The notes beneath the pieces were generated by a model, which saw only the letters and a program-made list of their open reading frames with translations, was not told where the DNA came from and searched no databases. 64,000 nucleotides of DNA from Zymobacter palmae (GTDB lineage Bacteria > Pseudomonadota > Gammaproteobacteria > Pseudomonadales > Halomonadaceae): assembly GCF_003610015.1 (NCBI RefSeq), contig NZ_AP018933.1:992001-1056000 (forward strand). The letters are read 5' to 3'. A program made the position numbers and the translations under genes. Numbering within the stretch: position 1 is the first letter of the stretch; every line of letters starts with the position of its first letter. Below are positions 18,387-44,555 of this stretch, one piece after another.

Positions 18387-20063
18387 ATGAGCGAAAGCTT
18401 TGCTGAACTGTTTGAACAGTCTCTGAATGACATCAACATGGAGCCGGGCGCAATCGTCGAGGCTACAATCGTTGACATCGAAGGCGATTGGATCACCGTT
18501 AACGCGGGTCTGAAATCTGAAGGTCAGATCCCGGCGTCCCAGTTCAAGGACGAAAGCGGCCAACTGAACGTTAAAGTGGGCGACACTGTTAGCGTTGCAC
18601 TGGAAGCGGTCGAAGACGGCTTCGGTGAAACTCGCCTGTCACGCGAAAAAGCAAAACGCGCTGAAGCTTGGAAAGAGCTGGAAGCTGCATTCGAAGACGA
18701 CCAGATCGTCAAAGGCGTGATCAACGGTAAAGTCAAAGGCGGCTTCACCGTAGACGTTAACTCTATCCGTGCGTTCCTGCCGGGTTCTCTGGTTGACGTC
18801 CGTCCGGTGCGTGACACGACTCACCTCGAAAACAAAGAGCTGGACTTCAAAGTCATCAAGCTCGATCCGAAACGCAACAACGTTGTTGTTTCCCGTCGTG
18901 CCGTTCTCGAAGCTGAAAACAGCGCTGAACGTGAAGCTCTGCTGGCGACCCTGCAGGAAGGTCAGCAGATCAAAGGTATCGTCAAAAACCTCACAGACTA
19001 CGGTGCATTCGTTGATCTGGGCGGCGTTGACGGCCTGCTGCACATCACGGACATGGCATGGAAACGCATCAAGCATCCGTCTGAAATCGTTGCAGTAGGC
19101 GACGAAATCAACGTGAAAGTGCTGAAATTCGACCGCGAACGCAACCGCGTTTCTCTGGGTCTGAAACAGCTGGGTGAAGATCCGTGGGTCAACATCAAAG
19201 CGCGTTACCCGGAAAACACCAAGGTCAAAGCACGTGTCACTAATCTGACCGACTATGGCTGCTTCGCAGAGCTGGAAGAAGGTGTTGAAGGTCTGGTTCA
19301 CGTATCCGAAATGGATTGGACCAACAAAAACATCCATCCGTCCAAAGTCGTCAACGTTGGTGATGACGTCGAAGTTATGGTTCTGGATATCGACGAAGAA
19401 CGTCGTCGTATCTCTCTGGGTATCAAACAGTGCACTCAGAACCCGTGGGAAGAGTTCAACTCTACCTACAACAAAGGCGACCGCGTTTCCGGTACCATCA
19501 AGTCCATCACTGACTTCGGTATCTTCATCGGTCTGAAAGGCGGCATCGACGGTCTGGTTCACCTGTCTGACATCTCTTGGTCTGAAGCTGGTGAAGAAGC
19601 AGTTCGCAAATACCGCAAAGGTGACGAAGCTGAAGCCGTCATCCTGTCTATCGATCCGGAACGCGAACGTATCTCTCTCGGCATCAAACAGCTCGAGAGC
19701 GACCCGGTTGCTGAGTTCCTGGCCGTCAACGACAAAGGCGCTATCGTTTCCGGTCGCGTTGTTGAAGTTGAGCCGAAACAGGCACTGGTCGAACTGGCTA
19801 CTGACGTCGTCGCTATCCTGAAAACAAGCGAAATCAGCGAAGAGCGCATCGAAGATGCGACTACTGAGCTGAAAGAAGGCGACGCTGTTGAAGCACGCAT
19901 CGTCAACGTTGATCGCAAAACGCGTACCATCAACCTGTCTATCCGTGCGAAAGACCAGGCTGAAACTCGTAAAGCGATGAACACGCTGCGCGAAGAAGAA
20001 CCGGAAGTTGCTGGTCCGACCACCATCGGTGATCTGATCAAGCAGCAGCTCAACCAGGACTGA
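18387..20063 (+). CDS. rpsA: 30S ribosomal protein S1
   Basis: mRNA-binding ribosomal protein required for initiation on most messages. Six S1/OB repeats can be followed (for example [64 protein letters not shown]). Length 558 residues matches E. coli (557). Codon use is much more biased than in its neighbours, as expected for a highly expressed gene, and this bias creates a long spurious open frame on the opposite strand. AGGA lies upstream of the ATG at 18387. A terminator follows at 20093. The usual next gene, ihfB, is not here but at 29720-30016 on the other strand. Confidence 0.97.
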
Positions 20064-20092
20064 TCTGATCAGCTCTGAGTGAGACCGCTGTG

Positions 20093-20121
20093 AATTGCCC
20101 GGGCCTTGTGCTCGGGCAATT
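20093..20121 (+). terminator. rpsA terminator
   Basis: AATTGCCCG pairs with CGGGCAATT around an 11-nt loop (GGCCTTGTGCT), followed by TTCGTTT. It lies 30 bp after the rpsA stop. Confidence 0.75.
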
Positions 20122-20209
20122 TCGTTTGAAGCCTTGTCTTTTATAGCAAGAGGTTGAGCAGGAAAACGTGCCGGAAATGGTTGACGGCAGTTGCGGGCAA
20201 CATCATGCT

Positions 20210-20641
20210 GCTCCACGCTCCACGCTCCACGCTCCACGCTCCACGCTCCACGCTCCACGCTCCACGCTCCACGCTCCACGCTCCACGCTCCACGCTCCAC
20301 GCTCCACGCTCCACGCTCCACGCTCCACGCTCCACGCTCCACGCTCCACGCTCCACGCTCCACGCTCCACGCTCCACGCTCCACGCTCCACGCTCCACGC
20401 TCCACGCTCCACGCTCCACGCTCCACGCTCCACGCTCCACGCTCCACGCTCCACGCTCCACGCTCCACGCTCCACGCTCCACGCTCCACGCTCCACGCTC
20501 CACGCTCCACGCTCCACGCTCCACGCTCCACGCTCCACGCTCCACGCTCCACGCTCCACGCTCCACGCTCCACGCTCCACGCTCCACGCTCCACGCTCCA
20601 CGCTCCACGCTCCACGCTCCACGCTCCACGCTCCACGCTCC
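20210..20641. repeat. Perfect 7-bp tandem array, about 61 units of CTCCACG
   Basis: From 20211 to 20637 the unit CTCCACG repeats 61 times with no substitution or slip, with a partial unit at each side. The array begins 89 bp after the rpsA terminator and ends 412 bp before brnQ. Since 7 is not a multiple of 3, every frame on both strands is open through the array (a 7-residue repeat LHAPRST on plus, VERGAWS on minus), so overlapping open frames there are not evidence of a gene. The top strand is C-rich and the bottom strand has GG every 7 nt. Such perfect homogeneity implies recent slippage or unequal-crossover expansion, and copy number is probably variable between isolates. Confidence 0.97.
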
Positions 20642-21052
20642 CGTGATAGCAAGAGCAAGATATTAGTGCAGGCTGCTGCATAATAGTGCGCCGACCCAAG
20701 AGAGGGTGGGAGTGATCGCAATTCTCACGGTTGGGTGATGCAAAATAAGCGTGGTTGTATCTTTCTGGAATATGTCGGAGGAAGGGGAAATCAGATGACG
20801 CTTTTTCTTTACCATGGCTTCATGATAAATGCGTGGTTATAGGGTATATGCGCAACCTGATGCCAACACAACGGGCATTCCAGAAGGATGTACCATAGAC
20901 GACGTTTATGTGGGTTTTTAGTGCTGTAAATCCTTTTTTGTTGGTAGCGAAATGCTTATGGTGCCTATATTTTACAATCATCTGCTGTTCGCTTATCATG
21001 TCGTACAATCTGAAACACCTCAAAGTACCGCATGTGCAAGGATTCATTCTCC
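20642..21052. other. Gene-free, AT-richer spacer before brnQ
   Basis: About 410 bp with no credible coding frame, no clear terminator and no promoter that I can place with confidence. It is noticeably AT-richer than the flanking genes and presumably contains the brnQ promoter. The base-composition change starts right at the end of the repeat array. Confidence 0.5.
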
Positions 21053-43137: not shown

Positions 43138-43224
43138 GCCCGAATGGCGAAATTGGTAGACGCAAGAGACTTAAAATCTCTCGCCCGTTAGGGCGTGCCG
43201 GTTCGATCCCGGCTTCGGGCACCA
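43138..43224 (+). tRNA. leuZ: tRNA-Leu (anticodon TAA)
   Basis: An 87-nt class II tRNA with acceptor GCCCGAA / TTCGGGC, anticodon stem GAGA..TCTC with TAA, a long variable arm CGCCCGTTAGGGCG, and encoded CCA. It follows tRNA-Cys after 46 bp as in the E. coli glyW-cysT-leuZ cluster. Confidence 0.96.
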
Positions 43225-43976
43225 GTCCCATCAATGGGTTACCATTTCCTTCCTTGTATTACCGTTACCTTAGTCACAATTTGGCCGCCTTCCTATTTTA
43301 TGGCTTCATGGCGTGTCATTGCTATGGTCTCTTAATATCTGCTTTTTAGCTGATGGAATACTTATTCCTCGCTGTATATATTCGTAGCGGTATTTTTGCT
43401 GGTGTAAAAGCGGATTTATCTGCCGTTGGTCTTGTTGTGATCGTATCTGAAGATGATAATGAAACGCCAACCTGCCAACCTGCCAACCTGCCAACCTGCC
43501 AACCTGCCAACCTGCCAACCTGCCAACCTGCCAACCTGCCAACCTGCCAACCTGCCAACCTGCCAACCTGCCAACCTGCCAACCTGCCAACCTGCCAACC
43601 TGCCAACCTGCCAACCTGCCAACCTGCCAACCTGCCAACCTGCCATGTTCTCGTTGATTCTTGACCTTTCGCTCGCTAATTCGGTATCGGAGAGTGTGAA
43701 TTAAAAAGGTCTACGGTGATTTCAAGCGTGTTTTATATCCGAGTATTTAATTTAGATATTAACCTGATGATTAAATACTCTTGATTGCAATCATTATTAC
43801 TGCCCTTTCAATGATATACCGAGGTTAAAACTGTAAACGGCGTGTGTGGAATTAGCTGTCGTTTTTTATATATGATGCCTGTCCTCCTTGGTTGCCCGAT
43901 GAACAGGTGTTGCTATGTCTGATGCTCTCTCTGTAATGCACGTTGCTCAATGCCACTTGGCTGCGGAGGGTGCGCG
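43225..43976. other. Gene-free region holding an 8-bp tandem array
   Basis: About 750 bp between tRNA-Leu and mntP. It is AT-rich on both sides of the array at 43466-43645. No terminator after tRNA-Leu, no yybP-ykoY riboswitch and no MntR-like palindrome are evident before mntP. Confidence 0.5.
43466..43645. repeat. Perfect 8-bp tandem array, 22 units of GCCAACCT
   Basis: From 43466 to 43641 GCCAACCT repeats 22 times without change, followed by GCCA. All frames on both strands are open through it (QPANLPTC on plus, GWQVGRLA on minus), so the overlapping open frames are not evidence of genes. The bottom strand is a continuous run of GG-TT-GG-CA, with pairs of G every four bases. The unit differs from the 7-bp array at 20210, but both are C-rich on the plus strand, perfect, and intergenic. 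Confidence 0.97.
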
Positions 43977-44555
43977 ATGAGTTTTGTGGCGCTGTTGCTT
44001 GTCGGGCTGGCTATGTCGGCAGATGCGTTTGCTGCTGCCATTGGGCGTGGGGTGGCCTTGCGTTCACCTAGCCTTCTTCAGGCCTTCAAGATTGGATTGG
44101 TGTTTGCGTCAGTCGAGGTCATTACGCCACTGATTGGATGGATGATCGGGCGTACGGCGCTGCCTTACATCTCAGCCTGGGATCATTGGGTGGCCTTTCT
44201 GCTGCTGTTGGGCTTGGGGGTCAATATGGTGCGTCAGGCCGTGTTCTGCAGGAATGAGGACGAGGATGGTGCCGATGCACCCGTTGCGGAAAGAAGCGGT
44301 CGTTTCGATATTTCGCTGATCCTGCTGGCCTTTGCCACTAGTATTGATGCCTTGGCCATGGGGGTAAGTCTCTCGCTACTGTCTGTCAGTATCGTTGAGG
44401 CGGCGGCGGTGATTGGTTGCTGCACGCTGGCGATGGCGACGATCGGTGTGTTGCTCGGCAATTTTCTCGGGCGCTGTGGCGGTCGGCTCGTTGAAGTGTT
44501 AGGGGGAGTACTGCTGATCGGAATGGGCTTTCATATCCTGATGACCCATATATAG
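43977..44555 (+). CDS. mntP: Manganese efflux pump MntP
   Basis: Six-helix inner-membrane Mn(II) exporter. The first helix has VGLAMSADAFAAAIGRGVAL with the conserved Asp, and the fourth has LAFATSIDALAMGVSLSLL with the matching Asp, the internal duplication of the family. ATG 43977 follows CGGAGGG at a good distance; an earlier frame to 43950 is unlikely. Length 192 residues (E. coli 188). A terminator follows. Confidence 0.93.
   Translation: MSFVALLLVGLAMSADAFAAAIGRGVALRSPSLLQAFKIGLVFASVEVITPLIGWMIGRTALPYISAWDHWVAFLLLLGLGVNMVRQAVFCRNEDEDGADAPVAERSGRFDISLILLAFATSIDALAMGVSLSLLSVSIVEAAAVIGCCTLAMATIGVLLGNFLGRCGGRLVEVLGGVLLIGMGFHILMTHI

Follow-up and report, generated by a model that had tools for sequence, protein, structure and literature searches.

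Long perfect arrays of 7-8-bp units have been known from bacteria for years without an accepted origin. The closest described class is the long simple sequence repeats (LSSRs) of prokaryotes, in which a unit of 1-11 bp forms a run longer than chance would give; as relayed in PMC4679880, Mrazek et al. (2007) reported units of 5-11 bp, with heptamers commonest and multiples of three favored in coding regions. As far as that second-hand account characterizes LSSRs, the arrays of Zymobacter palmae resemble them in unit size, heptamer excess (32 of 64 tracts), greater-than-expected length (22.5 perfect copies at the locus described here; 50 arrays in 2.02 Mb), and multiple-of-three units in coding regions (four of the five arrays within called genes). 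They differ in that tens of very long perfect arrays occur in a small genome, are oriented relative to the replication fork, and abut promoter-like elements. The Xanthomonas/Nostoc repeats (PMC4692102) are likewise mostly intergenic arrays of G-rich heptamers for which quadruplexes have been considered. There, one unit with G3 tracts (GGGAATC or GGGGA(C/T)T) is scattered as many short copies that favor neither the leading nor the lagging strand, whereas in Z. palmae the units differ at nearly all sampled loci and the long arrays show a strong strand preference (39:8). The TAACTGA repeats of marine Beggiatoaceae are also direct repeats of a heptamer that lie between genes and close to gene starts, but they comprise one unit at many loci, with few copies each, upstream of start codons (PMC4679880). 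The hyper-mutable tandem repeats of Acetobacter pasteurianus are similarly unstable arrays in a fermentation bacterium, with few loci reported (mentioned in PMC4686929). The nearest published parallel is found in Bacillus subtilis, where indels arising from replication-transcription conflict cluster at the promoter and at the 5' half of a co-directional gene (Sankar et al. 2016; PMC10710837, PMC7451550); these indels were demonstrated in a reporter gene and not as long perfect arrays. The available portions of this literature contain no statement of a promoter-edge or fork rule for arrays.

The window, a 64,000-nt stretch of the Z. palmae chromosome, contains one such array in the 752-bp gap between a tRNA-Leu gene and mntP, whose start codon is uncertain (43950 or 43977) (Table 1). 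The original prediction had described 22 perfect copies of an 8-bp unit, and the 180-bp tract indeed consists of 22 full GCCAACCT copies and a terminal GCCA, with 100% match and zero indels (TRF score 360). In a genome-wide search, runs of at least three tandem GCCAACCT copies were absent from the rest of the genome. The second perfect array announced for the same 64 kb is the GCTCCAC array, which has a branched-chain amino acid transporter gene on one side and, on the other, a gene whose translation resembles ribosomal protein S1; both arrays were correctly placed between genes and described as C-rich on the plus strand. Apart from the GCTCCAC array, the window holds no other array with a unit of 5-12 bp, at least 2.4 copies, and at least 18 bp, so the GCCAACCT array is not a product of chance. 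Because no reading frame of the array units contains a stop codon, both window arrays are traversed on both strands by long spurious ORFs (18639-20699 on the minus strand; 20141-20683 and 43306-43704 each on both strands), and automatic annotation may list them as proteins. A riboswitch 5' of mntP was considered and rejected, with zero Rfam hits at the gathering threshold.

Table 1. Arrays, neighboring genes, and promoter-like elements. Positions refer to the window, or to the chromosome where prefixed C1.
Feature	Position	Strand	Remarks
GCCAACCT tandem array, 22.5 copies, perfect	43466..43645	+	C-rich on leading-sense (+) strand
tRNA-Leu gene	43138..43224	+	Upstream of GCCAACCT array
mntP, putative manganese efflux pump	43977..44555	+	Pfam PF02659, E 2e-43; downstream of GCCAACCT array
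-35-like hexamer TTGTTG	43432..43437	+	17-bp spacer 43438-43454
-10-like hexamer GATAAT	43455..43460	+	Ends 5 nt before array; combined score 9.3 bits
GCTCCAC array, 61.7 copies	20210..20641	+	Same kind as GCCAACCT array
Promoter-like element TTGACG-17 bp-CATGCT	20181..20209	+	8.5 bits; directly before GCTCCAC array
Compound array (TGGCTGT)n-(TGGCAGG)n	C1:1969566-1969795	+	Flanks unrelated to those of second copy
Compound array (TGGCTGT)n-(TGGCAGG)n	C1:2164951-2165080	+	Same order and register as C1:1969566

The window arrays belong to a much larger set. Stretches of 20 kb taken about every 50 kb, and then two further sets, covered 2.02 Mb (67%) of the 3.02-Mb chromosome and contained 50 loci with an array of 35 bp or more, amounting to 9.1 kb of array sequence, with copy numbers as in the public assembly of this one genome. 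Extrapolation from the 67% sample gives about 75 arrays for the whole chromosome. Among the 64 tracts, the heptamers are followed by periods of 8 bp (11 tracts), 6 bp (8), and 9 bp (6). TRF returned 52 arrays of period 4-13, of which 42 were perfect and the remainder 97-99%; no decayed array was found among the sampled stretches, which implies fast turnover or very young arrays. In raw counts, the sampled origin-proximal regions C1:1-190000 and C1:2820000-3023483 are nearly array-free (first array at 190107, last at 2809719), and the interval from 0.75 to 1.25 Mb is array-dense (16 in 344 kb). The original prediction had proposed a mechanism favoring short arrays across the genome over the spread of a single sequence, and had named a scan returning just two arrays with no shared bias as the contrary outcome. 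That outcome did not occur: the scan, run on 67% of the chromosome, found 50 arrays with a common bias relative to the replication strands. Its description of the units as unrelated holds for most units across the genome; a few appear at several sites.

Origin and terminus were placed from dnaA (C1:16) and a dif-like site with 3 mismatches (C1:1469252), both in agreement with the switch in GC skew. In 39 of the 50 arrays the nascent lagging strand is the G-rich one; in eight the relation is reversed, and three are neutral (p = 3e-6). The first sample gave 23 of 29; the rule was then fixed before new stretches were read, and these gave 16 versus 2. The bias was also seen for units that are not a multiple of three (33 versus 4). 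In the leading sense, the arrays contain 20% G and 42% C, compared with 27% G and 23% C in surrounding noncoding DNA, and their strand bias runs opposite to the noncoding GC skew of the chromosome. Transcription of neighboring genes was rejected as the source of the bias: in a hand count over the first two samples, at loci with both neighbor genes in the same direction, the C-rich strand was the coding strand at 8:8, and agreement with replication was 12:4. Structure is predicted to be similarly one-sided. For the GCCAACCT array, the predicted RNA folding energy over 130 nt is -4.5 kcal/mol in the leading sense and -58 kcal/mol on the other strand, and the predicted DNA folding energies per 100 nt are 0 and -13 kcal/mol, respectively. 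Over all arrays, the more structured strand is predicted to be the nascent lagging strand in 28 and the lagging template in nine. Lagging-strand structure is known to be mutagenic in E. coli, as reportedly shown by Trinh and Sinden (1991). A hairpin located in the lagging template favors deletion, so arrays in the observed orientation are those expected to last. The strand rule and the structural asymmetry, taken by themselves, need nothing beyond ordinary slippage and orientation-dependent stability, with no role for transcription and with arrays starting anywhere in noncoding DNA; heptamer-rich arrays are, moreover, known from many bacteria, according to the summary of Mrazek (2007) in PMC4679880.

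Quadruplexes offer another way of linking strand and repeat. The bottom strand of the GCCAACCT array reads AGGTTGGC in tandem, the GG-TT-GG-CA series of the original prediction, and its GGTTGG pairs with short connecting loops are like those of the thrombin aptamer. Such GG tracts with TT and CA loops could form a chain of two-tier G-quadruplexes serving as a functional or mutagenic element, and a loose two-tier pattern (loops up to 7 nt allowed) occurs on the nascent lagging strand in 36 of the 50 arrays. Three tiers are possible on that strand in just nine of 50, however, the G4Hunter-type score of the GCCAACCT array is 0.88, several arrays lack any GG, and an imperfect hairpin is predicted for the G-rich strand. 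Quadruplexes may therefore form in some arrays and are not common to all; as a common cause they are unsupported, and a quadruplex chain with such a role at the GCCAACCT locus is very unlikely.

The starts of the arrays follow a second rule. Read in the leading sense, arrays start 0-8 nt past a sigma70-like element, and a listing of the flanks displays TTG about 31 nt before, and an A...T hexamer just before, most of them; at the GCCAACCT array the order is TTGTTG-N17-GATAAT-gaaac-array. With an author-made sigma70 matrix whose weights come from general knowledge, the mean score was 6.5 bits on the leading-sense side, 2.9 at the other array end (p = 1.6e-7, paired), and 2.8 at random intergenic sites (p = 8e-14). 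Sites of at least 5 bits were present at 34/50, 9/50, and ~20%, respectively. A prior-free motif search returned cTTGca and, after a gap that is mostly 17-18 or 20 bp long, cATnAT, with the array starting 0-2 nt past its end. TTG was present at -36 to -26 in 32 of the 50 arrays, compared with 8-13 in shifted windows. The motif trained on the first sample scored the remaining 21 arrays above random (p = 7e-5), a cross-validation and not a blind test, since all flanks had been inspected before the split. A strict consensus promoter scan reported nothing at either window array, so each promoter-like site is weak evidence when taken alone. As a group, the array starts carry a sigma70-like promoter element above background, as judged from -35 and -10 hexamers at 15-19 bp spacing; the single site at the GCCAACCT array is moderate. 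This promoter-edge rule is a new finding that was absent from the first reading of the window. Two-copy duplications of 6-9 bp, the expected first step of array formation, had no clear promoter association.

Under slippage without transcription, the promoter-like flank would be a by-product, for example of AT-rich, easily melted sites. Melting alone does not, however, predict an element of two blocks spaced by ~17 bp, present on one side and ending 0-2 nt before the array, and GC-neutral arrays and some of the eight that violate the strand rule still bear it on the leading-sense side. Slippage alone is a possible but somewhat unlikely account. The best explanation, with a probability of roughly 45%, is that the arrays are young, hypermutable, perfect short-unit repeats that were seeded at transcription-start bubbles co-oriented with the fork, grew by slippage, and were kept by orientation-dependent survival. 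The first duplication of 6-9 bp would arise where a transcription-start bubble or an RNA polymerase in the act of initiation encounters a co-directional fork, and replication slippage would then enlarge it. Strand structure would set both orientation and survival: with the unstructured C-rich strand as lagging template and the structure-prone G-rich strand as nascent lagging strand, gain would exceed loss and the array would persist, while arrays in the other orientation would tend to be lost. Finally, arrays would be retained chiefly at sites on which no gene relies, for instance between convergent genes, and within reading frames almost solely if the unit length is a multiple of three. What the data establish directly is that the arrays exist, are perfect, and take this orientation and position; their birth, growth, and selective loss are inferred. 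With dozens of arrays obeying the fork-direction and promoter-edge rules, their origin becomes directly testable, and they offer a natural system in which to study how repeats grow in an orientation-dependent manner, the process that underlies repeat-expansion disease.

The gene context of the arrays is consistent with their removal by selection near genes. Using author-made gene calls, which are based on codon usage, give ~74% coding, and miss some genes, gaps between convergent genes were enriched (17 of 41 arrays versus 148 of 884 expected; p = 2.5e-4) and those between divergent genes avoided (2 of 41 versus 193 of 884; p = 0.006). Five arrays fall within called genes: in four the unit measures 6, 9, or 12 bp, and the remaining one lies in a low-scoring call. 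Two in-frame arrays give repeat-bearing proteins, one with 27.6 copies of the 12-bp GAAGCTGAAACA (C1:509888-510218) and the other with a chain of four 9-bp units (C1:2053650-2054015). Many arrays follow closely on the downstream side of a co-directional gene and face a convergent one, an arrangement that could also reflect selected transcription control, in which C-rich, G-poor, unstructured array RNA would serve as a Rho loading site, terminating or silencing transcription that comes from the adjacent promoter or the upstream gene. The leading-sense composition and the predicted lack of structure on the plus strand of the GCCAACCT array fit Rho loading. It is nevertheless distinctly unlikely, given that the arrays are not conserved in relatives, that the unit differs between nearly all arrays, that Rho loading does not call for perfect repetition, and that arrays also occur inside genes and in head-on regions.

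A narrower version of the seeding model places array birth at the initial transcribing complex, with the bubble DNA duplicated during synthesis of the first 6-9 nt of RNA as a co-directional fork passes. Duplication of the DNA in the initial bubble would make the unit length that of the bubble or of the short RNA. Units of 6-9 bp are similar in length to early transcripts and to the RNA-DNA hybrid, and a tie between them is offered as a suggestion only. This version is unlikely, if less so than Rho loading. If it were true, the chromosome would preserve a legible history of co-directional conflicts, and the bacterial preference for 7-bp repeats would stem from RNA polymerase and not, as a published suggestion has it, from the stretch of DNA contacting DNA polymerase.

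Several observations count against the seeding explanation, among them the weakness of single promoter-like sites, the missing clear promoter signal at two-copy duplications, and the eight arrays that violate the strand rule. In addition, the same compound array, (TGCCACC)n-(CAGCCAA)n in the leading sense, occurs at two unrelated loci in the same order and register, which independent slippage does not explain. TGCCACC (TGGCAGG on the plus strand) is also found at a third locus, C1:1885791. Three heptamers recur at 2-3 loci, and five matching heptamer pairs between loci were seen where 0.5 were expected. From these sequence coincidences, some copying between arrays seems to occur. They would also suit templated synthesis or copying by an enzyme that targets promoter bubbles, be it a telomerase-like reverse transcriptase, a transposon, or array RNA or single-stranded DNA acting in trans. 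The genome has no PF00078 match for a reverse transcriptase, however, nearly all other units differ, and the compound-array loci have no shared flank or element end; array formation by such an enzyme is thus highly improbable, more so even than a quadruplex chain. A loss of repair function was also rejected. MutS, RecJ, ExoI, ExoVII, the PolA 5' nuclease domain, and SbcD are all present, so there is no simple repair loss among the known replication and repair genes. The ExoVII large subunit (C1:1927455-1928504) has an enlarged, coiled-coil-like middle part with many Q, H, R, and L residues, a feature shared with two relatives. The second replicon, C2 (5,060 bp), has no near relative among 72,556 plasmids; a short stretch of it matches MobA-type mobilization genes from enterobacterial plasmids.

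Eleven relatives (seven single-contig genomes and four drafts, in which arrays may collapse) were sampled over ~0.8 Mb, and their longest array with a 6-9-bp unit was 59 bp. With almost no arrays in these relatives, the phenomenon is special to the Z. palmae lineage among the genomes sampled. An orthologous GCCAACCT array was not found in relatives, where essentially the tRNA pair alone aligns. The GCCAACCT octamer is also present in nine contigs of other species. Pantoea sp. AS-PWVM4 (51 bp) and Pantoea sp. SOD02 (83 bp) carry the same octamer array 6 nt after TTG(T/G)TA-N17-TAC(T/C)CT, and because their flanks look homologous the two count as one case. A MAG of the Abditibacteriales contains a different, degenerate octamer repeat region, with long interleaved runs of the related octamers AACGTTCC, AACGTGCC, and AACCTGCC.
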